DNA of 39,161 nucleotides from a virus: positions 1 to 39,161 of IMG/VR virus record IMGVR_UViG_3300047276_000328. The stretch is one strand, 5' to 3'. Made by a program: the position numbers and the translations under genes. The notes under the pieces are model-generated. The model worked only from the letters and a program-made list of their open reading frames with translations, was not told where the DNA came from and did not search any database. Positions 2,425 through 24,057 of the stretch are shown piece by piece. Each line of letters opens with the position of its first letter. Positions within the stretch are counted from its first letter, which is position 1.

Positions 2425-3393
2425 TTAGGCGTTTGCTCCGATGCTGGAAGCAGACTCGATACGACGGAGGCTTGCCTCACGGAAGCGTCCGTATCCACCA
2501 AGCCAGTACCAACCGAGTGGCTGCAAGCGCATGAGAAGGTCTGTGACATTGCCACGAACAATCTTTGGTGTTGCGCCGTTACCATCGGTGATGGAGTGTG
2601 CCTTGGCAAGAGCCTGACGACCCATGATGAGCGTACCGTACACGTCAACCGTTCCAGTTGAACCTGAACCGTCTGATGCGTTTTCAAACACTGGACCACG
2701 AGGTGTCTCGATGAAACGTACAGATTCAAACTGTCCGATTTCGCCGTTGTAGATACCTGATGGGTTCACATAGTTTGCAGGGGTACGCCAGCCAGCAGCG
2801 TCGGTTTCCGAACGGAAGTCGTACGACACGTCTGGGTGGATGAAGCCCATGTAGGTTCCGTTGAACGTTGCGACGTTTGCTGCACGGAGGCGAGCAACTT
2901 CCTTACGGACGTCATTAGCGGTGAGGATGTCCTCTGCTGCAACGGTTGTACGGCTTGATGGGGTGCTTGCTCCGCCTGTTGCGTACGATACGTTCGAACC
3001 TGCTGCGAGGACGTCACGGACCACACGGTCAATGGAGTCACCTGCGTTGTATCCGACGATGTTCGCTGCTGCTGAGTCAACATCCAAGAAGGATGTGCCA
3101 CGCAACTTAGCGGTGGTTACTACTGCGTTACCGTATTCAGCAAGTGTCACTGTCACTTGGCTGTCGCTCAATGCAACAGGGGTGACGTCGGTCACTTCGT
3201 TCAGTGTTGACGTTGCGGGGGACAAGTCGCTGAAGATGGTGAATGTGACAGCCGAACCTGGCATTGATTGTGCGGTGGGCATTACGTCTGCTGCTTGGTC
3301 AAACAACAGTTCTGAACGCAAAGCGAAATATGCAATGCGGTCAAATGCGGTCTGGTCTACAGACAGCGAGGATGTGGTGGTTTCGCCAGCCAT
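2425..3393 (-). CDS. Major capsid protein (N4-gp56 family)
   Basis: A 322-residue protein. The early region has FALRSELLFDQAAD, then PGSAVTFTIFSDL. Next comes the strongly typical TVTLAEYGNAVVTTAKLR...NIVGYNAGDSIDRVVRDVLAAG block (residues about 85-135). This matches the N4-gp56-type HK97-fold capsid family as I know it. The C-terminal half carries HPDVSYDFRSETDAAGW and IMGRQALAKAHSI, also usual for these capsids. It directly follows the scaffold candidate, with AAGGAA upstream of the ATG. Length fits the family. Confidence 0.9.
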   Translation of the reverse strand: MAGETTTSSLSVDQTAFDRIAYFALRSELLFDQAADVMPTAQSMPGSAVTFTIFSDLSPATSTLNEVTDVTPVALSDSQVTVTLAEYGNAVVTTAKLRGTSFLDVDSAAANIVGYNAGDSIDRVVRDVLAAGSNVSYATGGASTPSSRTTVAAEDILTANDVRKEVARLRAANVATFNGTYMGFIHPDVSYDFRSETDAAGWRTPANYVNPSGIYNGEIGQFESVRFIETPRGPVFENASDGSGSTGTVDVYGTLIMGRQALAKAHSITDGNGATPKIVRGNVTDLLMRLQPLGWYWLGGYGRFREASLRRIESASSIGANA

Positions 3394-13983: not shown

Positions 13984-15954
13984 CTATAGCCATGACGGAC
14001 GCCACTGTCGGGGTGGCGGTTTCAGTTGTGACAGGTTCGGAATGTTTAGGGCTGCCATCCACATCGACATCACAATATCTGTGCCGTTCTTTTTATCTCG
14101 AGTCCATTTGGTGAGTTCTTCTACTGCTGCAAGGGTTTTCCAGTTTCCACGCATATGAGGTAGACGGATTGCACCCGTACGGAACAATGGTGGCAGTAGG
14201 GCTTCGACACCCATCTTTTCGTCGAGTTTGTTTCGGCTGGTGGTGTGCGGGATGACGTTCACTCCTCGCATTGTTTGCCACTTTCGCACAAAGTCGTGTG
14301 CCAGAAGGAATCGTTGGGCTGCGTTGATTTCTACAATCCAATGGGAGATGGGGTATCCCATTCGGAAGGAGCGTTCTTGCCAGTCTTCCATGATGCCTGA
14401 GTATTCACGGGTTGTGGTGTTGTATCCGAGTAGGTCTTCTGCTGTGAGTTTGGTGCGTTCGATGTCTATAACGTGGTAAAGGTTTTGTTCTGGTTGGTAG
14501 AGAATCCACGTTAATGCCCAGAACATAGTGGGGCTGGGGTCTACTGAGACGATGGAGAGGACAGGTGGGGCGAGTCCTGCGGGGATTTCACCATGTCCAC
14601 GTTCGTGGTCGATGCATCCTTGATACATAACCCCATCTGAACCCAGTCCACCATGTATCCATGTTTTGTCGATGAGGAAGGCGTCAAGGTCTAGTTCGCC
14701 TTGTTGGTAAACTACTTCGAAGACGTCTGGTTTGTTGTATCGGATGAACGAGAGGTCTTTCCACGGGAGACGTTTCGGGTCAAGTAGAGGACCATTTGGG
14801 TAAGGGGCTGCGTCAAAACGACGGCTTTCTTTTCCTGTATCCAGTTCTGGATAGTACGCCTGGTAGATGATGTGTTTGTATTTTGTGGATTTGAGGGGTT
14901 CCATCGCATTGACTTGTTCAGGTGTAGTGACATCCGAACCGTCATAATCTTCATCATCCAAATCGTATGTAACTTTGGCGAGGCAATGTGCATATAGGTC
15001 GCCTGGTCCGAGCCTTTGCCCAACAACAGCCAGCAACCCGCCTGGGTCGCAACGTGCTTCCGCCACGTTATCCCATCTTTCAAGAAGTTTGTCACGGGCA
15101 ACTGATTCACGGGCATTGTCTGGTGAGGCAACGTCGTCGAATAAACATAGGTCTGCACGATGTCCGATGAATTCTGCTTCGATACCGTAAGCACGGACTG
15201 TAGGTTCTTTGTTGTCCAAACCGTTACCATCTAATTGTTCTACCACAAATTCTTCAGCCCGCCACAAAGCACCCTTATCGGTGGGTTTGAATCTGCCATA
15301 GTCAATAGAGAGACATCCTTTAGCGTTCTGGGCTAATCCTTTCGCCACAAGTTGCGGGTCGGGTTCGATAGGCATAGGTCGCTCAAGGGTTTCCCTGATA
15401 CGGCGGGAATACATTTTCGCCATGTTTTGTGAGACTGAGCCAATCATGACACGGATTTTGCGGTCTCGTACGATTGCCCATACAGCAACATCATGGAACA
15501 AGGTGGATTTACCTGCGCCTGGCGGGACGTTTAGGACGACGAATTCTTTTTCTTCGGATTGTAGGAGTTTTACTAGTTCGACTGCTGCTTCTACTTGCCA
15601 TGGGGATGGTACACGTCCGAGGTAGTATTCACGGAAGAAGGCGAAGTCTTCTAATCCCCTCTTGGCTTCGTCACATAACTGGTCGTGGGCGATTGCGGTT
15701 GGTAGTTCGATGGCGTCCATCAGACTGTTGTATTCGTCTCGCTGTACCCCGCCTTGGTTGCGTCGGTGTTTCGCTGCTGTTGCTTCTGCTAGTTCAGCGT
15801 TTGCTTGTGCTGCTTTCGCTTTTTTTAACCATTTGGAGCCTGTGTTGACGTGGATGCCTGCTGTTCGGCTGGCTTGGCTGATGGTTTGTCCTGCGGTGAT
15901 GGCTGCGAAGAATTTGGCTTTGTCTGCTGGTGAGACAGAACGCTTGGTTCCCAT
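13984..15954 (-). CDS. terL: Terminase large subunit with N-terminal HTH
   Basis: A 656-residue packaging motor ATPase/nuclease. Walker A is PPGAGKST at residues 144-151. A Walker B-type segment (ADLCLFDDVASPDNA) lies near residue 270. The RNase H-like nuclease begins with SIVSVDPSPTMFWA around residue 475, with a further acidic motif in HWIVEINAAQRF. Residues about 9-45 (ADKAKFFAAITAGQTISQASRTAGIHVNTGSKWLKKA region) form a helix-turn-helix of the type used by small terminases. It is joined by a basic linker to the motor. No separate small terminase was found nearby, so DNA recognition may be built into this protein. Confidence 0.92.
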   Translation of the reverse strand: MGTKRSVSPADKAKFFAAITAGQTISQASRTAGIHVNTGSKWLKKAKAAQANAELAEATAAKHRRNQGGVQRDEYNSLMDAIELPTAIAHDQLCDEAKRGLEDFAFFREYYLGRVPSPWQVEAAVELVKLLQSEEKEFVVLNVPPGAGKSTLFHDVAVWAIVRDRKIRVMIGSVSQNMAKMYSRRIRETLERPMPIEPDPQLVAKGLAQNAKGCLSIDYGRFKPTDKGALWRAEEFVVEQLDGNGLDNKEPTVRAYGIEAEFIGHRADLCLFDDVASPDNARESVARDKLLERWDNVAEARCDPGGLLAVVGQRLGPGDLYAHCLAKVTYDLDDEDYDGSDVTTPEQVNAMEPLKSTKYKHIIYQAYYPELDTGKESRRFDAAPYPNGPLLDPKRLPWKDLSFIRYNKPDVFEVVYQQGELDLDAFLIDKTWIHGGLGSDGVMYQGCIDHERGHGEIPAGLAPPVLSIVSVDPSPTMFWALTWILYQPEQNLYHVIDIERTKLTAEDLLGYNTTTREYSGIMEDWQERSFRMGYPISHWIVEINAAQRFLLAHDFVRKWQTMRGVNVIPHTTSRNKLDEKMGVEALLPPLFRTGAIRLPHMRGNWKTLAAVEELTKWTRDKKNGTDIVMSMWMAALNIPNLSQLKPPPRQWRPSWL

Positions 15955-16972: not shown

Positions 16973-17275
16973 TATTCGCTGCGGTTGTCCTCAAAGCACC
17001 GTTGAAAGATGGTGGAGGTAGGTCCAGGTAGGTGGGTGACTTTTTCTTTTTGTCTTTTTTCTTTTTCTAGCCTATTTGTTTTACGCTCAGGAAAGGGGTC
17101 GTGCTCGGCTCCCCCGAACTGTAAAACCCTAGACGGCTACACACACACCCCTCCAAGCCAAACAACATTTACCCCCACACACCCCAAACCCCCAAAAGAG
17201 TGAAACCGTACCACTCAACTAATACATACATACGCCCCCCGTAGCCTCGGCACATCCCCAGTTGCGTTACGCTTT

Positions 17276-17293
17276 CTACCTACTGGTAGGTAG
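17276..17293. repeat. Inverted repeat CTACCTA-CTGG-TAGGTAG
   Basis: A perfect 7-bp inverted repeat with a four-base centre inside the A/C-rich half of the control region. No gene is attached to it. An origin or protein-binding element is conceivable. Confidence 0.5.
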
Positions 17294-17399
17294 TTGTACC
17301 GTGCAACCAAAACCCAACCCAACAACAAAAAATAGACAACATAAAGAACCCATACCCCTATCGGTACCGTAACAAAACCATATATTAGGCACACCAAAC

Positions 17400-17420
17400 A
17401 ATACAAGTACAATACAAGTA
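17400..17420. repeat. Tandem AATACAAGTA repeat
   Basis: Two copies of the 10-mer AATACAAGTA at 17400-17409 and 17411-17420, an 11-bp period (about one helical turn). They sit just before the A/C to G/T composition switch. They may form part of a protein-binding site at the possible origin. Confidence 0.5.
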
Positions 17421-17450
17421 ACAAACCAACAGCACTGCCTAGTGTTCACT

Positions 17451-17640
17451 GTGTGTGTTGGTTGGTCACTGTGTGTGGTGTGGTGGTGTGGTTGGCGTGG
17501 TCTCGTGGTGTTGTGGTCTCGAGTGTTGGTGTGGTGGTGTGTTGGCGTGAGACGTGTTCTCGAGCGTTCTACTCGTTAGTAGGTGTTGGTGTGGTGTGTT
17601 GGTGCTTGGATGTTTTCGTCATGACGTTATTGGTCTCGAG
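17451..17640 (+). repeat. G/T-rich imperfect repeats with TCTCGAG motifs
   Basis: About 190 bp made almost only of G and T on the plus strand (GTGTTGGTGTGGTG-type units). TCTCGAG occurs at 17517-17523, 17558-17564 and 17634-17640, and a related TCTCGT at 17501. Units such as GTGTTGGTGTGGTG recur with different spacing. This resembles an iteron-like or DNA-unwinding region but has no fixed period. Open reading frames here are composition artefacts. Confidence 0.55.
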
Positions 17641-17642
17641 TG

Positions 17643-17658
17643 TGTGACGAACGTCACA
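17643..17658. promoter_or_regulatory. CRP/GlxR-like operator dyad 1
   Basis: TGTGAC-GAAC-GTCACA, a perfect dyad matching the CRP-family consensus TGTGA-N6-TCACA. It is the first of three such sites in the early region. Like site 2 it is followed by an AATAAATG stretch. It lies 264 bp upstream of the first early ATG; I could not identify a good -10/-35 pair next to it. Confidence 0.6.
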
Positions 17659-17796
17659 TAATAAATGTGTTTTTTGTTCGTTGTTGGGTGTTCGTGGCGT
17701 GTAGTTTTTTGGTGTCTTCTGTTTCGTGATTTGTGGCGGGGCAGGCTAGGCGTGAACATTGAAAACTGAAGAATTGTTTTATGGGTCTCTCTTTTC

Positions 17797-17882
17797 GGAC
17801 GTCGTGTTGTCGTTCCGATTGGGTTCAATTCCCAATGCGTCCACAACACCCCTAGAGGGGTGCTATTGCCATTTGTGGCAAT
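17797..17882 (+). promoter_or_regulatory. Structured 5' leader of first early gene (tRNA T-arm-like, pseudoknot-capable)
   Basis: The leader contains a T-arm-like hairpin (TTGGG-TTCAATT-CCCAA, 17819-17835) including a GGTTCAATTCC box. It is enclosed by GGACG (17797-17801) pairing with CGTCC (17838-17842). GTGTTGT (17804-17810) is complementary to ACAACAC (17843-17849), which would make a pseudoknot. Two further perfect hairpins follow: CACCCC-TAGA-GGGGTG (17847-17862) and ATTGCCA-TTTG-TGGCAAT (17865-17882). It is too short for a tRNA gene. A regulatory or stability element for the early mRNA is inferred. Confidence 0.5.
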
Positions 17883-17906
17883 CCAACAAGAGAAAGAAAA
17901 ACAACC

Positions 17907-18293
17907 ATGAAAACTATGTCCTACCGCGAGTATTTCGACTACCACGTTCAACACCACGATTACCCCAAGGTACGAGTGGAAGCGTTCGAGGATTTCATCG
18001 CACATCGTGCACGGACTCTCTCGCCAACGTTGGGAGAGTTGGCACAGTCAATGAATGACGAACACAATAGCGACGTGTTTTGGCAGTTTGAGAACGCTTA
18101 CGAGGGACAATGGGACTCAATTGGTGAGTTCGCTTGTGACTATATGTCCGCCGACCAATTGACCTATGCCCGTTTTATGAATTGGGAACATTTCGCTAGC
18201 GAAGTTCTGCCCGATTTCTTTATTACGGACTCTCACAACGTGTTCAGAACGTTCTACTCGACAGAATGGAACAAGCACACCATCGACAACTAG
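17907..18293 (+). CDS. ArdA-like antirestriction protein (short)
   Basis: A 128-residue acidic protein. The C-terminal two thirds carry the ArdA pattern: FENAYEGQWDSIGEFACDYM, then YARFMNWEHFASEVLPDFF, then DSHNVFRTF. ArdA proteins are DNA mimics that inhibit type I restriction and modification enzymes. Typical ArdA is about 165 residues with three domains; this one lacks most of the N-terminal domain. It is the first gene of the early block, with an AGAGAAAGA-type ribosome binding site before the ATG. The stop codon TAG shares its G with the first base of the first hammerhead ribozyme. Confidence 0.75.
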   Translation: MKTMSYREYFDYHVQHHDYPKVRVEAFEDFIAHRARTLSPTLGELAQSMNDEHNSDVFWQFENAYEGQWDSIGEFACDYMSADQLTYARFMNWEHFASEVLPDFFITDSHNVFRTFYSTEWNKHTIDN

Positions 18294-18354
18294 TCGAAAC
18301 TCTCCCCATATTGGGGAGGGTCTAGTAGGGATTGCCTCCTACTACTGATGAGAC
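18293..18354 (+). ncRNA. Type II hammerhead ribozyme, copy 1
   Basis: All core elements appear in type II order. Stem II 3' strand GTC is at 18293-18295 and GAAA at 18296-18299. Stem III is CTCTCCCCA/TGGGGAGGG with a TAT loop, followed by the cleavage triplet GTC (18320-18322). Stem I is TAGTAGG/CCTACTA with an 8-nt loop, then CTGATGA (18345-18351) and stem II 5' strand GAC (18352-18354). U1.1-A2.1, C15.2-G16.2, A15.1-U16.1 and G10.1-C11.1 are all satisfied. Cleavage is predicted after C18322. Stem II is only 3 bp, the weakest element. Confidence 0.92.
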
Positions 18355-18376
18355 AGGCATAAGAGAAAGAGAAACC

Positions 18377-18640
18377 ATGAACACCAAAACAAAAAATAGA
18401 CCTACGTCGATTAGTGACCTAATCACCATGGAAGGTAGAGCGTCAACGTGGCAAAGTTTCGTAATAGGCGGAACTATGCACATTTTCCATTATTCCACAC
18501 TCATGGCAGAAGTGACGCCTAGCGCATTAGTGCAAGTGTCTAGCGGTTGGGGTTCTATGTCCGATAAATGCGGAATGAGAAAACTAATCAACGAGGCACA
18601 GAAACTAGGTCTAGAGTTTCATAAAGAAATTAGAGACTAA
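18377..18640 (+). CDS. Early protein between two hammerheads, unknown function
   Basis: An 87-residue protein from the ATG at 18377 (start MNTKTKNRPTSISDLITMEG). An upstream in-frame ATG lies inside the ribozyme and is rejected. The centre reads HIFHYSTLMAEVTPSALVQVSSGWGSMSDK, recalling small phage proteins with an HYST...GxxSMT pattern (DUF8033-like), but this is weak. The ribosome binding region is AGAGAAAGAGAAACC. Its stop at 18638-18640 lies 2 nt before the second ribozyme. Cleavage at both ribozymes would release this gene on a 350-nt RNA (18323-18672). Confidence 0.75.
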   Translation: MNTKTKNRPTSISDLITMEGRASTWQSFVIGGTMHIFHYSTLMAEVTPSALVQVSSGWGSMSDKCGMRKLINEAQKLGLEFHKEIRD

Positions 18641-18642
18641 TA

Positions 18643-18704
18643 GTCGAAACTCTCCCCATATTGGGGAGGGTCTAGCGAGTGTGTCGGCTCGCTACTGATG
18701 AGAC
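18643..18704 (+). ncRNA. Type II hammerhead ribozyme, copy 2
   Basis: Same architecture as copy 1. GTC is at 18643-18645, GAAA at 18646-18649, and stem III is identical to copy 1, with triplet GTC at 18670-18672. Stem I is TAGCGAG/CTCGCTA (18673-18679 with 18688-18694) and the loop is TGTGTCGG. CTGATGA is at 18695-18701 and GAC at 18702-18704. Stem I differs from copy 1 at four paired positions, yet every pair is kept. This covariation is strong evidence for the RNA fold. Cleavage is predicted after C18672. Confidence 0.92.
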
Positions 18705-18722
18705 AGACAAGAAAGAGAAACC

Positions 18723-18974
18723 ATGAACACAACGAAAAAATATCGTGTTTACTTATTTTGCGAAAATAACACAGACACAAAACATGACCCTATTAGCGGT
18801 AATAGTGTTGCGTGTCGAGACTTTGACACTCTTGCACAGGCGCACGAACACGGACTACGCCACGTCGGGCGAGAAATAGACATAGCACTAGTTCCTAGTG
18901 TAGTTACGAGTTACCTCGTAGGCGAATGGTGCTCTAATTGTTTGGCGTGGATTGCCGACGGTAAGCACTACTAG
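18723..18974 (+). CDS. Small early protein with C-terminal CSNC, unknown
   Basis: An 83-residue protein starting MNTTKKYRVYLFCENNTDTK. A central FDTLAQAHEHGLRHVGREIDIALVP segment looks alpha/beta. The C-terminus holds WCSNCLAWIADGKHY with a CxxC pair, and a further two Cys occur upstream (FCEN, VACRD), so metal binding is possible. It directly follows the second ribozyme, with AAGAAAGAGAAACC before its ATG. It would be at the 5' end of the RNA left after cleavage. No known family was recognised. Confidence 0.75.
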   Translation: MNTTKKYRVYLFCENNTDTKHDPISGNSVACRDFDTLAQAHEHGLRHVGREIDIALVPSVVTSYLVGEWCSNCLAWIADGKHY

Positions 18975-19021
18975 ACCAAAAGACTAGACCTATAGAACAA
19001 TTCTAAAGTTTCATTACGATA

Positions 19022-19037
19022 TGTGACGACTGTCACA
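19022..19037. promoter_or_regulatory. CRP/GlxR-like operator dyad 2
   Basis: TGTGAC-GACT-GTCACA matches TGTGA-N6-TCACA exactly. It is followed by GAATAAATG, as in site 1, and ends exactly 10 nt before the -35 box of the promoter at 19048. That spacing is shared with site 3. Confidence 0.65.
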
Positions 19038-19047
19038 GAATAAATGG

Positions 19048-19076
19048 TTGACATGGTGCATAAACTTGTGTACCGT
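19048..19076 (+). promoter_or_regulatory. Early promoter TTGACA-N17-TACCGT
   Basis: A consensus -35 TTGACA (19048-19053), a 17-nt spacer and an actinobacterial-type -10 TACCGT (19071-19076). It lies in the 192-bp gap before the zinc-ribbon gene (19167). It would start a second early transcript covering the second ArdA-like gene and those after it. The CRP-like dyad lies just upstream. Confidence 0.65.
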
Positions 19077-19166
19077 GTTACGCAACAGGTTAGACACCAC
19101 ATGACGCCAGACTCCACACGAGGCTAGGAGAAATGCGGAACATGACCACAGAAGAAAGGACAGAAC

Positions 19167-19355
19167 ATGACGACAGAAAAAAATACGTTCACTTGTTCAT
19201 CATGCAAAACAGAAACACACAAGTTTGAGATGTTCCCAAACAGTATGTGTCTCGATTGCTACGAAGAACAATGGGAGAAAAAACAGCAAGGCAAAACAGA
19301 AAAAGAAATAGCACAAGACTTATACAACGACATCACGTCGGTATTTGGAAAATAG
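19167..19355 (+). CDS. Zinc-ribbon-like small early protein
   Basis: A 62-residue protein: MTTEKNTFTCSSCKTETHKF, then MCLDCYEEQW. Two CxxC knuckles (residues about 10-13 and 30-33) are as in a zinc ribbon, followed by a charged helical tail (KTEKEIAQDLYNDITSVF). GAAAGGA lies 9 nt upstream of the ATG. It is the first gene behind the 19048 promoter. It could bind nucleic acid or a host protein; no specific function is evident. Confidence 0.75.
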   Translation: MTTEKNTFTCSSCKTETHKFEMFPNSMCLDCYEEQWEKKQQGKTEKEIAQDLYNDITSVFGK

Positions 19356-19368
19356 AAAGGATAAAAAA

Positions 19369-19680
19369 ATGGCAACCTACGCAGAATGGCACAACGAAGA
19401 ACTAGAACTAGACGACACAGAATACGAGGCACTCGTAGACTATCTCGGCAACCAACACGAGAAAGAAACGGACGAGTACGACGACGATACCGTGCGTCAA
19501 TGTTTCGAGGCATACCAAGGACAATGGGAGTCTATGGAAGATTACGTCGAGCAACTCGTACGAGAGACTCGTGATATTCCAGAATGGGTGAAAAACCACA
19601 TTGACTGGGAGTCTATGGCGCACGACTACCATCACGACTACTGGATTAGTGACAATGGTCACGTCTACTCGTCATACTAG
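19369..19680 (+). CDS. ArdA-like antirestriction protein (second copy)
   Basis: A 103-residue very acidic protein from the ATG at 19369, preceded by AGAAAGGATAA. It has the ArdA core CFEAYQGQWESMEDYVEQLV (residues about 44-63), then VKNHIDWESMAHDYHHDYWISDNGHVYSSY. The family pattern AYQG-(E/Q)(Y/W)-S-EDY...IDYExxAxDY...G-H-VY is well kept. As a DNA mimic it would block type I restriction enzymes. The short length means only part of canonical ArdA is present. Sequence similarity to the 17907 gene is limited to the shared motifs, so the two are old paralogues or separate acquisitions. Confidence 0.82.
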   Translation: MATYAEWHNEELELDDTEYEALVDYLGNQHEKETDEYDDDTVRQCFEAYQGQWESMEDYVEQLVRETRDIPEWVKNHIDWESMAHDYHHDYWISDNGHVYSSY

Positions 19681-19691
19681 AAAGGTACATA

Positions 19692-19952
19692 ATGGATACA
19701 CAACACCTAGACCAAAAAACAAAAAACACTCTACGCATAGCGTTCACTATCTACAACAATGGCAAAGACGGTAGTTTCTGGTTAGAAAAGGCTTGCCAAC
19801 ATTGGAATGAGTTGTATGGCACTACCGACGTACATACTAACGTGTGGGAAGAAATAACACAACTAATAGATATGGAGTTTTCACAACTCAAAAACAAGCA
19901 CCCAAGATTAGCAAATTGGGTACAAAAACAAAAGAAAGGACAACAACAATGA
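19692..19952 (+). CDS. Small early protein, unknown
   Basis: An 86-residue protein, MDTQHLDQKTKNTLRIAFTI to QKQKKGQQQ, predicted helical. It has an SFWLEKACQHWNELYG segment and a Lys/Gln-rich tail. AGAAAGGTACATA precedes the ATG. Its stop overlaps the next start (ATGA). No family was recognised. The expression context groups it with the antirestriction gene immediately upstream (11-nt gap). Confidence 0.7.
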   Translation: MDTQHLDQKTKNTLRIAFTIYNNGKDGSFWLEKACQHWNELYGTTDVHTNVWEEITQLIDMEFSQLKNKHPRLANWVQKQKKGQQQ

Positions 19953-20257
19953 ACACAACAGAACTAGACCAACAGTATGACCGACTCCTAATGCAAGCAT
20001 ACGAACGTGGCAGAGCGCAAGGTTGGCACGACATGATGCAAGGCTACGAAAATCCGACGCCACTATCGGGAGAATGGGCAGGCGAGTCTATCCCAGAGAT
20101 ATTAGGCGACCTAATAAAACAGGCAACCATGATTAGCGCAGAGATGAAAGGCTTAGGCGAGGACGGTATGGACAACGTAGATGGCGACCCATACGAAGCA
20201 TGGCAGGACATCTGTGACAACTACGAGACAGGATACTTTGATGGTAACTGTGACTAA
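19949..20257 (+). CDS. Acidic early protein with PLSGEWAG motif
   Basis: A 102-residue protein from the ATG at 19949, overlapping the previous stop. It has AYERGRAQGWHDMMQGYENP, then TPLSGEWAGESIPEILGDL, and an acidic tail with ICDNYETGYFDGNCD. The PLSGEWA motif followed by an acidic Y-x-x-G-Y-x-D/E-G ending is one I associate with small proteins of actinobacterial phages; the role is unknown. The acidic character suits a DNA-mimic or anti-host protein. Its last codons overlap CRP-like dyad 3, so coding and regulation are superimposed. Confidence 0.75.
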   Translation: MNTTELDQQYDRLLMQAYERGRAQGWHDMMQGYENPTPLSGEWAGESIPEILGDLIKQATMISAEMKGLGEDGMDNVDGDPYEAWQDICDNYETGYFDGNCD

Positions 20258-20264
20258 TGTCACG
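20249..20264. promoter_or_regulatory. CRP/GlxR-like operator dyad 3
   Basis: TGTGAC-TAAT-GTCACG matches TGTGA-N6-TCACA with one changed outer base. It overlaps the stop codon of the upstream gene and ends 10 nt before a TTGTAA -35 candidate, the same offset as at site 2. Confidence 0.55.
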
Positions 20265-20274
20265 ACAGAAAGTG

Positions 20275-20303
20275 TTGTAACCCACACACAAGTGTGTTAC
20301 ATT
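20275..20303 (+). promoter_or_regulatory. Early promoter candidate TTGTAA-N17-TACATT
   Basis: -35 TTGTAA (20275-20280), a 17-nt spacer and TAnnnT-type -10 TACATT (20298-20303). It lies between two early genes in the only gap of this stretch, 27 bp before the next ATG. It shares geometry with the 19048 promoter relative to a CRP-like dyad. Confidence 0.5.
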
Positions 20304-20329
20304 ATAAATAACAGAGAAAGGATACCACG

Positions 20330-20509
20330 ATGGTAACACTAGAAATATACACAGACATAACACAACTCACGTCAAAAGAGTTTGACGACATGGCAAGAGC
20401 CGAGCGTTACGCAATGAACATACTAGGTACGTTCACATCGCATGGCACCATCAGCCTTGTAAGGGTAACAGACTCGATGTTGGGTGAGACAACAGAGTTT
20501 GAGTATTAG
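20330..20509 (+). CDS. 59-aa early protein, unknown
   Basis: ATG at 20330 preceded by AGAGAAAGGATACC. It encodes MVTLEIYTDITQLTSKEFDD and ends GETTEFEY. The centre (MARAERYAMNILGTFTSHGTISLVRVTDS) suggests one helix plus a beta-strand pair. It is acidic and has no cysteines. It is the first gene downstream of the 20275 promoter candidate. No family was recognised. Confidence 0.7.
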   Translation: MVTLEIYTDITQLTSKEFDDMARAERYAMNILGTFTSHGTISLVRVTDSMLGETTEFEY

Positions 20510-20540
20510 AAAACTCACAACACAAGAAAGGACAACAACA

Positions 20541-20840
20541 ATGGGATACTCATGCACAGCACGAGCCAACGAAACCTACAGAACGTGGGTTGAGGTATGC
20601 AAACAGACAACAGGTATGGGCAACGTATACCTACACAATGGTACTAAGTATTGCCTAGAAATTGGCAGAGAACAACGAGATGGTGCGATAACTGGCACAG
20701 TGTTACGACTCGAAACCAACGGTATCGACGAGAACGGTAGAGAAAAACACCTAGCGTACAGTAATGGCACGTTCAGAATTGAGCCAGATGGGACAGTCAA
20801 ACGCTACCCAACAGGCATGAAGAAAGTGATGGCACAATGA
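20541..20840 (+). CDS. Small early protein, unknown
   Basis: A 99-residue protein from the ATG at 20541 (AGAAAGGACAACAAC upstream), starting MGYSCTARANETYRTWVEVC. The alternating hydrophobic pattern (GTKYCLEIGREQRDGAITG, TVLRLE, GTFRIEPDGTVKRYP) points to a beta-rich fold. Such GTxRIxxDGxV patterns recur in small phage proteins of unknown function. Its stop overlaps the next ATG (ATGA). Confidence 0.75.
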   Translation: MGYSCTARANETYRTWVEVCKQTTGMGNVYLHNGTKYCLEIGREQRDGAITGTVLRLETNGIDENGREKHLAYSNGTFRIEPDGTVKRYPTGMKKVMAQ

Positions 20841-21076
20841 ACTACTACGAGCAAAGTTTCACACCATTTATGGTGACGCCTACAACATGGAGCAACACAG
20901 AAAGGTTTACAGAGTTAGCGTTGCATGACGGTATCTGTCTCGAATGTTTTGCGCCAGTTGGATACAGCACCGACCATAACGGTACGCAAGTATGGCACGA
21001 CTACTGGGTGATAGACGAGGATATGGAGACAGTCTACTGTCCTCCATGCTATGAAGAACTCACGAAAGAAATATAG
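20837..21076 (+). CDS. Small early protein with CLEC/CPPC zinc-ribbon pairs
   Basis: A 79-residue protein starting MNYYEQSFTPFMVTPTTW. It has CLECFAPVGY (about residues 34-43) and CPPCYEELTKEI at the end, two CxxC pairs that would suit a zinc ribbon. Between them lies TQVWHDYWVIDEDMETVY, an acidic aromatic strand. It is translationally coupled to the preceding gene. The function is unknown; it resembles the 19167 gene only in metal-ligand layout. Confidence 0.75.
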   Translation: MNYYEQSFTPFMVTPTTWSNTERFTELALHDGICLECFAPVGYSTDHNGTQVWHDYWVIDEDMETVYCPPCYEELTKEI

Positions 21077-21088
21077 AAAGGTACGACA

Positions 21089-21226
21089 ATGAACACACAA
21101 GAACTCATCACGCAACTATGGGACATCATCAACACAGAAGACGACTCAGACACGGTAGTCACGCAAGTTTGCGAACTACTGAACGAGACTGAAGCACAGA
21201 TAGAAATTGAGAAAGGACAGTCATGA
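21089..21226 (+). CDS. 45-aa acidic early protein
   Basis: ATG at 21089 with AGAAAGGTACGACA upstream. The product is MNTQELITQLWDIINTEDDS, then VVTQVCELLNETEAQIEIEKGQS, probably a two-helix acidic peptide. Its stop overlaps the next ATG (ATGA at 21223). Operon context and ribosome binding site support it despite the small size. No function is inferred. Confidence 0.65.
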   Translation: MNTQELITQLWDIINTEDDSDTVVTQVCELLNETEAQIEIEKGQS

Positions 21227-21444
21227 GTACAGAAGACACAACGCCACAATATGTGACAGTCACTAGGTCATACACATATGACGTACAAGAAATAATCCAA
21301 TCACTACGAGAAGTGTTAGATATTGAAAACCCAACATGGGAAGATATCGAACAACAGATAAATGACTGGGCACATGAAGACCATAGGTCACCCATCGAAA
21401 AACACGACCTAGTGTGGACAGACCAAGACGGTAACGAACTCTAG
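21223..21444 (+). CDS. Small acidic early protein
   Basis: A 73-residue protein, MSTEDTTPQYVTVTRSYTYD to TDQDGNEL. A beta-strand-like start (YVTVTRSYTYDV) is followed by helical EIIQSLREVLDIENPTWEDIEQQINDWA. Net negative charge is high. The layout of strand plus acidic helices is seen in several small actinophage early proteins; no function is assigned. It is coupled to the preceding gene by ATGA. Confidence 0.7.
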   Translation: MSTEDTTPQYVTVTRSYTYDVQEIIQSLREVLDIENPTWEDIEQQINDWAHEDHRSPIEKHDLVWTDQDGNEL

Positions 21445-21455
21445 AAAGGACAGTA

Positions 21456-21629
21456 ATGAGTAACAACCAATACATAATCACCACAGACGGAACAGTAGTC
21501 AAAGCGTCAGAGTGCTACCTAGTAGACCTAGACCTACTCTCCGATGAGGACGTAGATACCGTGTCATACGGTAGCGACGAGGAAGTAGCAGAACTCGGAC
21601 AGCGCATAGGTATGCGTGTCGAAGCATAA
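21456..21629 (+). CDS. 57-aa acidic early protein
   Basis: ATG at 21456, with AGAAAGGACAGTA upstream. Encodes MSNNQYIITTDGTVVKASEC, then YLVDLDLLSDEDVDTVSYGS, ending GQRIGMRVEA. It is acidic, with one cysteine, and is not recognised. It fits the operon rhythm of short genes separated by AGAAAGG sites. Confidence 0.7.
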   Translation: MSNNQYIITTDGTVVKASECYLVDLDLLSDEDVDTVSYGSDEEVAELGQRIGMRVEA

Positions 21630-21662
21630 GATTTCATAATCACAACAAAGAAAGGAAACATT

Positions 21663-21887
21663 ATGAAAGCAAAAGATATTGCGGAACACTTTTCGCAACT
21701 CGACCCAGAAGAAGACGTATGTATCTTGTGGTACGAACGACCACACGATGAAGATATGTACGGACATATCCCCAGCAAAAATGCGTGGAAGAAAATCTGT
21801 GACGAATACGAAGACACAGAAACTCTCCACAACGAAATCTCAGACTGGATGTTTGAGGCAATCACAGAATACAAGGATGTGCAGTAA
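21663..21887 (+). CDS. Small acidic early protein
   Basis: A 74-residue protein, MKAKDIAEHFSQLDPEEDVC, with ILWYERPHDEDMYGHIPSKNAWKKICDEY and an acidic end. The start (AKDIAEHFSQLDPEEDVCILWY) resembles small phage/bacterial proteins with a KxKDLIExLxxLDPDxxV pattern, of uncertain role. AAGAAAGGAAACATT precedes the ATG. Its stop overlaps the next start (TAATG). Confidence 0.7.
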   Translation: MKAKDIAEHFSQLDPEEDVCILWYERPHDEDMYGHIPSKNAWKKICDEYEDTETLHNEISDWMFEAITEYKDVQ

Positions 21888-22060
21888 TGATTGCGAACAC
21901 ATACGTTAGTGACGCAGAACACACCAGAATAATGTTGTTCTTCATCATCACATCTGTCACAATGCTTGTAGCAATACCAGTTGCCGAGCATTACAGAATG
22001 AAATTACGCCACCATAAAATGCGTAACCATCCATCCATGCGAAATAGAAAGGACAAATAA
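21887..22060 (+). CDS. 57-aa single-pass membrane protein
   Basis: ATG at 21887 overlaps the preceding stop. Residues about 15-33 (IMLFFIITSVTMLVAIPVA) form one clear transmembrane helix. The C-terminus is basic (HYRMKLRHHKMRNH...RNRKDK), so an N-out/C-in orientation is predicted. An early-expressed membrane peptide could act in superinfection exclusion or alter the host membrane; this is inference. No homologue was recognised. Confidence 0.65.
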   Translation: MIANTYVSDAEHTRIMLFFIITSVTMLVAIPVAEHYRMKLRHHKMRNHPSMRNRKDK

Positions 22061-22061
22061 C

Positions 22062-22364
22062 ATGGACACAACAACAAAAAATATGTGGGATTTTCTCGAA
22101 GAAGAAGATTGCACAGCACCAGAAACACGAGAACTATTCCAATGGTCACTCAACTACGACCACCCAGACAGACCGTTCAATCTGTTCTGTGACATCATTG
22201 GATACAGCGAGGAACACTACGGTACTCGGATGTGGTCAGGCAAGTTTGCCAGTACCATTGGATATGTCGAGGCAGGCTATCTGGCTGACGCACTCAACGA
22301 ATGGGCAGACCGACCACAGCAGGTAGAGAATTGGATTACCGAACTCATGAGCACCGAGGACTAG
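22062..22364 (+). CDS. Acidic early protein, unknown
   Basis: A 100-residue protein starting MDTTTKNMWDFLEEEDCTAP. It contains NLFCDIIGYSEEHYGTRMW, then TIGYVEAGYLADALNEWADRPQQVENWI. It is strongly acidic and predicted helical. The IGYSxEx(Y/F)G and ALNEWADRPQxVENWI motifs look conserved for a phage family, but I know of no function. AGAAAGGACAAATAAC lies before the ATG. Confidence 0.75.
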   Translation: MDTTTKNMWDFLEEEDCTAPETRELFQWSLNYDHPDRPFNLFCDIIGYSEEHYGTRMWSGKFASTIGYVEAGYLADALNEWADRPQQVENWITELMSTED

Positions 22365-22366
22365 CC

Positions 22367-22630
22367 ATGAACAAGACATACGAAATCGAATACCATATCG
22401 AAGGATACGTCCCAGTACAACGAGAAGTAGTCACAGTAGATGGACGTTCAATGCGACAGAACAGACTGCCTGTCTGCCTTATCGAATACGCACAGCGCAT
22501 ATCGAAAGGCTACGGGGCATACAGGTTCCGTATCCATGACTACCTACCGCCACACATCTCAGGCGCAGGCGTCACGCTAGGTGTAGCACGACTCGCATAC
22601 GAAGAAGAACTACCAGATGCTCCGAAGTAA
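22367..22630 (+). CDS. Small early protein, unknown
   Basis: An 87-residue protein from the ATG at 22367, two bases after the previous stop; an upstream out-of-operon start is rejected. It begins MNKTYEIEYHIEGYVPVQRE and includes LPVCLIEYAQRISKGYGAYRFRIHDYLPP. It is probably beta-rich. No ribosome binding site is obvious, so translation may be coupled to the upstream gene. It overlaps the last early gene by 14 nt. No family was recognised. Confidence 0.65.
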   Translation: MNKTYEIEYHIEGYVPVQREVVTVDGRSMRQNRLPVCLIEYAQRISKGYGAYRFRIHDYLPPHISGAGVTLGVARLAYEEELPDAPK

Positions 22631-22868
22631 ATACATCTCGGCACTCACAGCAACCATCAAACAAAAAACACAAGCAACAAGCGAGTGTTACATCATCCGC
22701 AAAAAGCACAGCACCAAACCAAAGTATTACGCAATGGACTGGGGTGACTACCGTTGGGTGACAGACATCAACGAGGCTATGCACTTTCGTTCCATGCAAG
22801 AAATCAACACAGAACTAGACGCCACAATGGTCAGATACGAAGCGTACTTTGAGATAGTCAAACTATAG
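22617..22868 (+). CDS. Last gene of the early block, unknown
   Basis: An 83-residue basic protein, MLRSKYISALTATIKQKTQA, with ECYIIRKKHSTKPKYYAMDWGDYRWV and AMHFRSMQEINTELDATM. It is basic in its first half, unlike the acidic genes before it. It ends 12 nt before the bidirectional terminator. Its start lies inside the preceding gene. No function was recognised. Confidence 0.65.
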   Translation: MLRSKYISALTATIKQKTQATSECYIIRKKHSTKPKYYAMDWGDYRWVTDINEAMHFRSMQEINTELDATMVRYEAYFEIVKL

Positions 22869-22880
22869 CCTGCCACACAG

Positions 22881-22922
22881 ATAACCCCATGCTCGTCCCC
22901 TTTTCTCCGAGTGTGGGGTTAT
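22881..22922. terminator. Bidirectional terminator between converging blocks
   Basis: ATAACCCCA (22881-22889) pairs perfectly with TGGGGTTAT (22914-22922), and inner CTCG/CGAG can extend the stem. The plus side is followed by TTTG. It ends the rightward early block and the leftward recombination/WhiB operon, whose stop codon lies inside the stem. Confidence 0.75.
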
Positions 22923-23191
22923 TTGCGTATCTGAATAACAACAGGTTGTTTGTCTAGCAGATAGCGTTGGCGTGGTGTTTTGCCACCAAACATTCCGAAC
23001 CTATCTCGCTTACCTTTCTCGAACTCCATCGCATAATCCAAGCATTGCTGACTGACATTGCATTTCTCACAGAACTGGAGAGCCTGATTGTAGACAGACT
23101 CTTGACCCCCTGGGTTATCTGGGAAAAAGATTTCGTTAGGCACTCCTCGACACGCTGCTTTTTCTTGCCAGTCTGGACGTTCGAGTATCAT
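22919..23191 (-). CDS. WhiB-family Fe-S regulator
   Basis: A 90-residue protein with the WhiB signature: Cys14, Cys41, Cys44 and Cys50 in a C...CxxCx5C arrangement, and a G(M)FGG loop (residues 66-70) before a basic C-terminal segment (TPRQRY). WhiB proteins are found only in actinobacteria and their phages. They bind a 4Fe-4S cluster and act with the primary sigma factor. Phage versions such as WhiBTM4 repress host whiB2 and affect division and superinfection. Here it is the last gene of the leftward operon, with its start overlapping the upstream stop. Confidence 0.9.
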   Translation of the reverse strand: MILERPDWQEKAACRGVPNEIFFPDNPGGQESVYNQALQFCEKCNVSQQCLDYAMEFEKGKRDRFGMFGGKTPRQRYLLDKQPVVIQIRK

Positions 23192-23376
23192 TTCTTCCGC
23201 TTTCTTTTGGATTGTTGAGCGTCCTGCCTCGCTCGTGTTGTTTTATTTGTGTGGCATATACATGGGCAGGAGTCATGTACAGATTGTGGGTAGGTTGTGA
23301 TTGCTCGTAGCACTGTTCCGCAGTGTGTACAGTCGGGATGTGCCCGAGGGAAATCCAATAGGTCTACTGTCTCCAT
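23188..23376 (-). CDS. Small Cys-rich zinc-binding candidate
   Basis: A 62-residue protein, METVDLLDFPRAHPDCTHCG, then DSCPCICHTNKTTRARQDAQ, with a Lys/Arg tail KRKRKK. CTHC and CPCIC with a nearby His could hold zinc. The basic tail suggests nucleic-acid contact. It overlaps the upstream gene by 13 nt and WhiB by 4 nt. No named family was recognised. Confidence 0.65.
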   Translation of the reverse strand: METVDLLDFPRAHPDCTHCGTVLRAITTYPQSVHDSCPCICHTNKTTRARQDAQQSKRKRKK

Positions 23377-23573
23377 ATGGGGACGTTGGGTTCTACTGCA
23401 TCCATTTGTTCTTCCGACTCATACAAGCGCAGGATGTGCATACATGGGTCTTCACCATCGTCCCAGAGTTGGGTTTCATAATCAGACATTGGTATGCCGT
23501 CATGGGTTGAACAGACAGGCACACTGCAAAATCCGTGTTCTCTACCTATGGATATCCAAGTGTTGAAATCCAT
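23364..23573 (-). CDS. Conserved actinophage-type small protein (FCSVPVCSTHDG)
   Basis: A 69-residue protein using the ATG at 23573, which overlaps the stop of the tiny membrane gene (TAATG). A longer upstream frame is rejected because of this coupling. It starts MDFNTWISIGREHGFCSVPV and contains CSTHDGIPMSDYETQLWDDGEDPCMHILRL. The GF/YC...CxTHDGxPM...EDxCxxxxR pattern is one I recall as frequent in actinobacterial phages, function unknown. Three cysteines plus His could bind a metal. Confidence 0.75.
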   Translation of the reverse strand: MDFNTWISIGREHGFCSVPVCSTHDGIPMSDYETQLWDDGEDPCMHILRLYESEEQMDAVEPNVPIWRQ

Positions 23574-23656
23574 TAGTACCCTGTCAGTTTGTTGAAAAGT
23601 TTGCCGAGTCCGAAGCCTACGCCTGCTGCGATAATCATATAGATGATGGTCTGCAT
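23573..23656 (-). CDS. 27-aa membrane miniprotein
   Basis: ATG at 23656 overlaps the SSB stop (TAATG), and its own stop overlaps the next start (TAATG). The product begins MQTIIYMIIAAGVGFGLGKL and ends FNKLTGY, one glycine-rich transmembrane helix. The double coupling argues that it is translated. It could be a small lysis or membrane modulator; this is unproven. Confidence 0.6.
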   Translation of the reverse strand: MQTIIYMIIAAGVGFGLGKLFNKLTGY

Positions 23657-24057
23657 TAGAACGGTTCCTCATCATTGAACGCTGGCATAGCCTTGCCTAC
23701 TAGCCCTGTCTGTGCGACAGTCTTGCCTGTCTGGTCTGCTACCCATGCGTTCCAACGGCATGACGCACCCACTTCATCTGCGATAAGTTTCGTGGACTTA
23801 CGCTTCTCACCATCTTTGGTGGTGAACTCCTCTTGTTCGAGTCGTCCTGTGATGATGACGGATGTTCCTTTGCTGATGGTGTTCGCTACGTTTTCTGCAA
23901 GTTTGCCGAACACGATAATGTTCCACCATGTTGTTTTCTTTTTGTCGTCTTTGCCGTAGTTGTCTGCCACACTGAATGTGAGGACAGCGTTTTGGCTGGC
24001 GGAGAACCTGAGTTCTGGTTCTTGTCCGACTGTGCCGTGAATAGTTACTGTATTCAT
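23656..24057 (-). CDS. ssb: Single-stranded DNA-binding protein
   Basis: A 133-residue OB-fold SSB. The start MNTVTIHGTVGQEPELRFSA, the central WWNIIVFGKLAENVANTISKG and the VIITGRLEQEEFTTKDGEKR strand pair are typical. The C-terminus ends in an acidic tip, DEEPF, used for protein contacts. It protects single-stranded DNA during replication and recombination and would work with the exonuclease and annealing protein upstream in the same operon. It is coupled to the 27-aa gene. Confidence 0.93.
   Translation of the reverse strand: MNTVTIHGTVGQEPELRFSASQNAVLTFSVADNYGKDDKKKTTWWNIIVFGKLAENVANTISKGTSVIITGRLEQEEFTTKDGEKRKSTKLIADEVGASCRWNAWVADQTGKTVAQTGLVGKAMPAFNDEEPF

Follow-up and report, generated by a model that had tools for sequence, protein, structure and literature searches.

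Type II hammerhead ribozymes of viral contigs occupy a fixed seat between stop and start codons, with two predicted copies in a phage gene block

Type II hammerhead ribozymes occupy an unexpectedly fixed seat between the stop codon of an upstream gene and the start codon of the next, as shown by the hundreds of relatives collected here. Two such elements lie in the window, the whole 39,161-base IMG/VR virus record that we analyzed, and both fit this stop-ribozyme-start seat. Judging from sequence, we give a probability of roughly 0.7 to the reading that the two ribozymes cut a three-gene RNA into intact, hairpin-ended single-gene mRNAs.

Results

Genomic context

The minus strand of the window carries the terminase and capsid genes together with genes for tail, a RecE-like exonuclease and an annealing protein. 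On the plus strand, a block of small genes begins at 17907, and the ribozymes are located in the gaps between its first three members; the label "early" for this three-gene operon is a guess from the layout.

2425-3393, minus strand: capsid gene
13984-15954, minus strand: terminase gene
17907-18293, plus strand: gene 1, 128 aa, stop codon UAG at 18291-18293
18361-18379, plus strand: gene 2 leader, a purine-rich ribosome-binding region and ATG, 22 nt past stem II of ribozyme 1
18377-18640, plus strand: gene 2, 87 aa, ending in UAA
18723-18974, plus strand: gene 3, 83 aa, ATG 18 nt past stem II of ribozyme 2

The three genes are mutually unrelated and only the spacer is repeated, the gene 3 leader being nearly the same as that of gene 2. 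Neither gene 1 nor gene 3 had a PHROG or Pfam match, and a pattern search for relatives of gene 1 returned none. For gene 2, viral contigs contain three distantly related sequences, at 39-59% identity, and no ribozyme adjoins any of them (0/3). The nearest relatives of the capsid protein belong to Streptomyces phages (46%), a likeness that gives only a hint of an actinobacterial host. A DNA search of phage records with positions 17000-24000 yielded no match, and a search for terminase relatives in bacterial genomes found none.

Several other features surround the three genes. The sequence TGTGACGANNGTCACANAATAAATG occurs twice in the window, at 17643-17667 and 19022-19046, where zero occurrences are expected by chance; its copies, placed before and after the three-gene unit, look like an operator- or promoter-like site. 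In relatives, sequences resembling GTGACnnnGTCACA precede a promoter-like sequence (e.g. L164, L168). A 26-nt inverted repeat (17763-17788/18986-19011; 22 of 26 positions complementary, against 20 in the best of 60 shuffles) brackets the three genes and two ribozymes, and might possibly reflect 5'-3' pairing of the transcript or the ends of a mobile segment. Finally, 17804-17848 can adopt a tRNA-like fold with a T-arm-like UUGGGUUCAAUUCCCAA within GUGUUGU/ACAACAC arms, followed by two small hairpins and then gene 1; ARAGORN reported no tRNA there, and Rfam gave only a chance tmRNA match.

Anatomy and covariation of the two ribozymes

The earlier note on this DNA had proposed two 62-nt elements, and we verified their positions and predicted cut sites.

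18293-18354, plus strand: type II hammerhead ribozyme 1 (RF02276 match 18292-18362, 45.9 bits, E 2e-6); stem II 18293-18295/18352-18354, GAAA 18296-18299, stem III 18299-18308/18312-18321, stem I 18323-18330/18337-18344, CUGAUGA 18345-18351
18322-18323, plus strand: predicted cleavage site 1, after C18322, with GUC preceding stem I
18333-18336, plus strand: loop I arm UGCC of pseudoknot 1, pairing with 18356-18359
18356-18359, plus strand: 3' tail arm GGCA of pseudoknot 1
18643-18704, plus strand: type II hammerhead ribozyme 2 (RF02276 match 18642-18712, 57.9 bits, E 1.4e-9); stem II 18643-18645/18702-18704, stem I 18673-18680/18687-18694, CUGAUGA 18695-18701
18672-18673, plus strand: predicted cleavage site 2, after C18672
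18682-18685, plus strand: loop I arm UGUC of pseudoknot 2, pairing with 18706-18709
18706-18709, plus strand: 3' tail arm GACA of pseudoknot 2

The assignment of both elements to the type II hammerheads, already made in the earlier note, is supported by the Rfam score, the core, the three stems, covariation between the copies and among relatives, and the class-typical pseudoknot. A covariance-model search had been named beforehand as a refuting test; both copies scored above the gathering cut-off of 37 bits and covered the RF02276 model end to end (1-66 of 66). A cmscan of all Rfam families against the 39 kb window returned only these two Hammerhead_II matches above the gathering score, and a laxer search added a single match, a chance tmRNA fragment. 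A type I hammerhead was also sought elsewhere in the window with no match, in a search whose positive control likewise gave no match.

Base by base, both copies consist of stem II GUC/GAC, GAAA, a 10-bp stem III, GUC, an 8-bp stem I and CUGAUGA, which is the order described previously, with stems I and III closed by loops and stem II open. CUGAUGA, GAAA and the triplet GUC are unaltered in both copies, the rule of the class being CUGANGA, GAAA and NUH. The pattern of open and closed stems, the core, GUC and the pseudoknot are shared with RF02276 (PMC3088659), from which the window elements differ in the 10-bp stem III, longer than that of most surveyed relatives; otherwise they are ordinary. 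The copies lie 350 nt apart on the same strand. Their 5' halves are identical, with stem III the same as claimed, and so is stem II; comparing 18285-18325 with 18635-18675, two stretches of 41 nt, gives 95% identity. Stem II of ribozyme 1 opens with the G that also ends the UAG of gene 1, and a UAG after the UAA of gene 2 likewise supplies the opening G of stem II in ribozyme 2.

The copies differ in stem I, where U-A becomes C-G, A-U becomes G-C, G-C becomes A-U, and the 8th pair changes from G.U to U.G. Pairing is kept, as had been stated, but the seven pairs quoted at the time hold three two-sided changes rather than four; the fourth is the 8th pair, outside those seven. In both copies, loop I also pairs with the 3' tail in a 4-bp pseudoknot, which the earlier note had overlooked and which covaries from UGCC/GGCA to UGUC/GACA. 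Most type II hammerheads carry this pseudoknot, and in a metagenome-derived type II ribozyme its disruption abolished activity, which a compensatory change restored (Perreault 2011, PMC3088659).

Among the matches listed, 104 relatives have the 22-nt stem-loop I of the window copies and served as the covariation set. In these 104 listed relatives, the first six pairs of stem I form in 95-100% versus 48-76% expected for independent columns, the stem II pairs form in 95-100%, and as many as six pair types occur in stems II and I. For the four pairs of the pseudoknot, the share is 88% of the same 104 listed relatives, against 65% expected from column make-up, whereas slid registers form in 25-45%, equal to expectation.

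The 3-bp stem II had been regarded as the weak point of both elements. This concern is answered by the pseudoknot found in both copies; moreover, such a stem is normal, since it measures 3 bp in 174 of the 327 relatives among the matches listed and since a longer stem II lowered the activity of a pseudoknotted type II ribozyme (Perreault 2011, PMC3088659). An upstream hairpin (GAC...GUC), predicted for each copy, that would hide the GUC of stem II was considered and dropped, because a 3-bp upstream partner occurs in 15.0% of the 327 relatives among the matches listed and in 13.9% after shuffling.

The elements could instead be inactive remnants of formerly active ribozymes, and 4 of 18 consensus hammerheads tested indeed failed to cleave, the other 14 being active (Perreault 2011, PMC3088659). 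We consider this highly improbable here: the intact core and the scores above the Rfam cut-off speak against it, and the change of stem I and pseudoknot with pairing kept argues for selection after duplication.

Survey of the stop-ribozyme-start seat

Viral contigs were searched with two patterns (stem II GTC/GAC and GCC/GGC), with at least 120 stretches each, and after a structure filter and removal of near-duplicates at least 327 type II hammerheads in 219 loci were retained. Among the matches listed, no locus (0/219) had ribozymes on both strands, and 213 of 327 ribozymes (65%) had the stop of a frame on the same strand, 40 or more codons long, 2-6 nt before core G12, a distance at which the stop adjoins stem II or shares its first base; random positions had such a stop in 2.3%. 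A stop triplet at this seat closed such a frame in 83% of cases among the matches listed, versus 12% for random stops. An open-frame ATG lay 5-60 nt past stem II in 86% (median 24 nt), and stop and start occurred together in 76% versus 5.7% at random, both for the 327 among the matches listed; read antisense, 4 of 189 among the matches listed had the two together. The seat was likewise present in bacterial genome contigs, in 44% of 88 structured matches versus 1/31 (3%) of unstructured decoys with the same pattern. An A at -4/-5 before stem II is common even where no gene stops, and part of the composition ahead of stem II is therefore structural.

The distance from stem III to the stop also bears on whether the hairpins serve to terminate transcription or are sites for host RNases, their likeness to hammerheads being incidental. 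Stem III is indeed a strong hairpin just past a stop codon, but it follows the stop at a median of 7 nt (quartiles 6-9) among the matches listed, as against 16.5 nt (quartiles 5-27) for terminator-like hairpins of the same contigs. No T-run follows the hairpins of the window, a terminator scan gave nothing on the plus strand at the site, and such a role would need neither catalytic core nor pseudoknot, which makes this explanation barely credible.

One subclass of the survey has a 17-nt stem-loop I (111 of 327 among the matches listed), with a loop that is mostly U-N-A-N-G and a stem II usually of 4 bp; a conserved pseudoknot tail is lacking, and members include L024 840-894, L042, L069, L079, L113, L169, L175, L180 and L224, among others. 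RF02276 detects 14 of 19 copies of the 22-nt class, 0 of 24 17-nt copies in 20 loci, and 3 of 9 copies in L224. Library searches with this model hence undercount, because a common subclass with short stem I falls mostly below its cut-off. Dense arrays also occur, with six Rfam matches within 4.1 kb in L287 (127-4237), nine copies across about 4.2 kb of L224, and seven pattern matches in the single contig L032. Two stretches contain two ribozyme classes, with Type-P5 twister ribozymes (L024 1070-1124, L270 3601-3658) near type II hammerheads on the same strand.

Ribozymes and flanking genes in related phages

We collected 50 records with a related terminase (75-100% identity). A Hammerhead_II Rfam match was present in 8 of the 50 records and in none of the other 42, many of which are short fragments; phages of this group can therefore do without the ribozyme or replace it, a point that counts against the processing role proposed below. 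A structural search of the loci of the terminase-related group gave nine distinct ribozymes, each on the opposite strand to the terminase; those of G003, G006, G014 and G022 lie about 1.5-2.5 kb upstream of the terminase start, compared with 2.3 kb in the window. These ribozymes reside in the same divergent block but have different stems, and their flanking genes are mostly unrelated. One small gene family of this group has a ribozyme directly upstream, without a promoter match, in four backgrounds, and a promoter-like sequence upstream, without a ribozyme, in several others; the two never occur together. Though the numbers are small, this either-or pattern fits the view that a ribozyme may give an inner gene a fresh 5' end, as a promoter does for a leading gene.

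The variation of flanking genes among relatives could also mean that, as selfish spacer cassettes or ones prone to recombination, the ribozymes persist between genes with little benefit. Copies within one genome do sit between unrelated genes and are often alike in one half only: among the matches listed, neighboring pairs were alike in stem III and unlike in stem I in 10 cases, the reverse in 1, and alike in both in 5. Functionless drift, however, would break pairs, whereas stems and pseudoknot covary and the seat after a stop and before a start is retained. We therefore regard spacer cassettes as quite unlikely. An origin of tandem copies by gene duplication was rejected, as the genes following the ribozymes within one contig are not detectably related; comparison of flanking-gene homology with the similarity of ribozyme halves, based on few pairs, revealed no clear split. 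Examples of such neighboring copies come from L030 (6853, 7137, 7426), the window (18322, 18672), L226, L258, L117 and L289; L030 reads A/X, B/X, B/Y, as if halves had been swapped at the cleavage junction.

Discussion

We propose that a polycistronic RNA of genes 1-2-3 would be cut in cis after C18322 and C18672. At their 3' ends the upstream pieces would carry the stem III hairpin and a 2',3'-cyclic phosphate, while the downstream pieces would begin with a 5'-OH followed by the stem I/pseudoknot fold. Since both cuts would lie between the stop of one gene and the ribosome-binding site of the next, every piece would keep a whole reading frame; the order of stop, ribozyme and ribosome-binding site thus suits such a device, leaving no broken frame and no message without a stop. 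Acting as an internal site of processing, the ribozyme would provide every gene with separate ends while requiring neither a transcription stop nor host RNases. Such ends may stabilize the messages, and the benefit may be the decoupling of genes. A 5'-OH end may also speed decay. Cleavage by these two copies is inferred from their sequence and fold.

The fixed seat might further be functional in its own right, with type II hammerheads cutting phage operons in a translation-gated rather than constitutive manner. A ribosome terminating at the stop would cover stem II and GAAA together with the 5' strand of stem III, keeping the ribozyme unfolded, so that translation would time the cutting. We find this extension unlikely.

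A further possibility is a circular RNA of gene 2, formed when cleavage by both ribozymes releases a 350-nt piece whose ends join. A complete hammerhead identical to ribozyme 1 would arise from the 5' half of ribozyme 2 and the 3' half of ribozyme 1, because the 5' halves and stem II are identical and stems I and III are self-contained. Retrozymes make circles from tandem hammerheads (PMC4918200, PMC7761336). This anatomy is unspecific, however, being open to any neighboring type II pair with the same stem II, and spliced or circular products were sought by Perreault 2011 and none were found (PMC3088659). Nor would the circle offer an endless frame, given that its 350 nt cannot be divided by 3 and that UAA UAG closes gene 2. 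We judge it very unlikely.

Several known systems resemble the arrangement in the window. Contrary to the earlier description of type II as the rarer form, it matches types I and III in frequency among bacteria (Perreault 2011, PMC3088659). The same study reported prophages in which single genes are often flanked by several hammerheads, and a 2017 review agrees that hammerheads flank small non-conserved genes (PMC6155905). Because tandem ribozymes flanking small phage genes have been described, the window is a new example of a known arrangement. The clustered prophage hammerheads of C. scindens, A. caulinodans and A. tumefaciens (ardA) share one orientation and flank single small genes of phage transcripts, as do the two plus-strand copies of the window, each after the stop and before the start of whole genes; they belong to another phage group and to other genes. 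Cleavage in vitro was seen for those tested, and for the A. tumefaciens tandem set in E. coli as well (Perreault 2011, PMC3088659). In HHphage of haloviruses HF1/HF2, a ribozyme likewise lies just 5' of a start codon in a phage operon, with a mapped 5' end at most 3 nt from the cut (described in Perreault 2011, PMC3088659), but with a variant core, an archaeal host and a single copy. The retrozymes of plant and animal retroelements resemble the window in that tandem hammerheads bound a unit of a few hundred nt; theirs, however, belong to type I or III, and the unit is the same in each repeat, whereas the genes bounded here are unrelated and no retroelement features were seen. In the parts covered, the literature that we searched, largely open-access, contains no mention of a stop-codon seat of hammerheads, and we claim no priority for it.

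The role of hammerheads in phages has been a standing question since 2011. A seat fixed within a few nucleotides in most of several hundred listed examples favors the separation of the messages of neighboring genes, and what the present analysis adds is this fixed seat together with its testable consequences.
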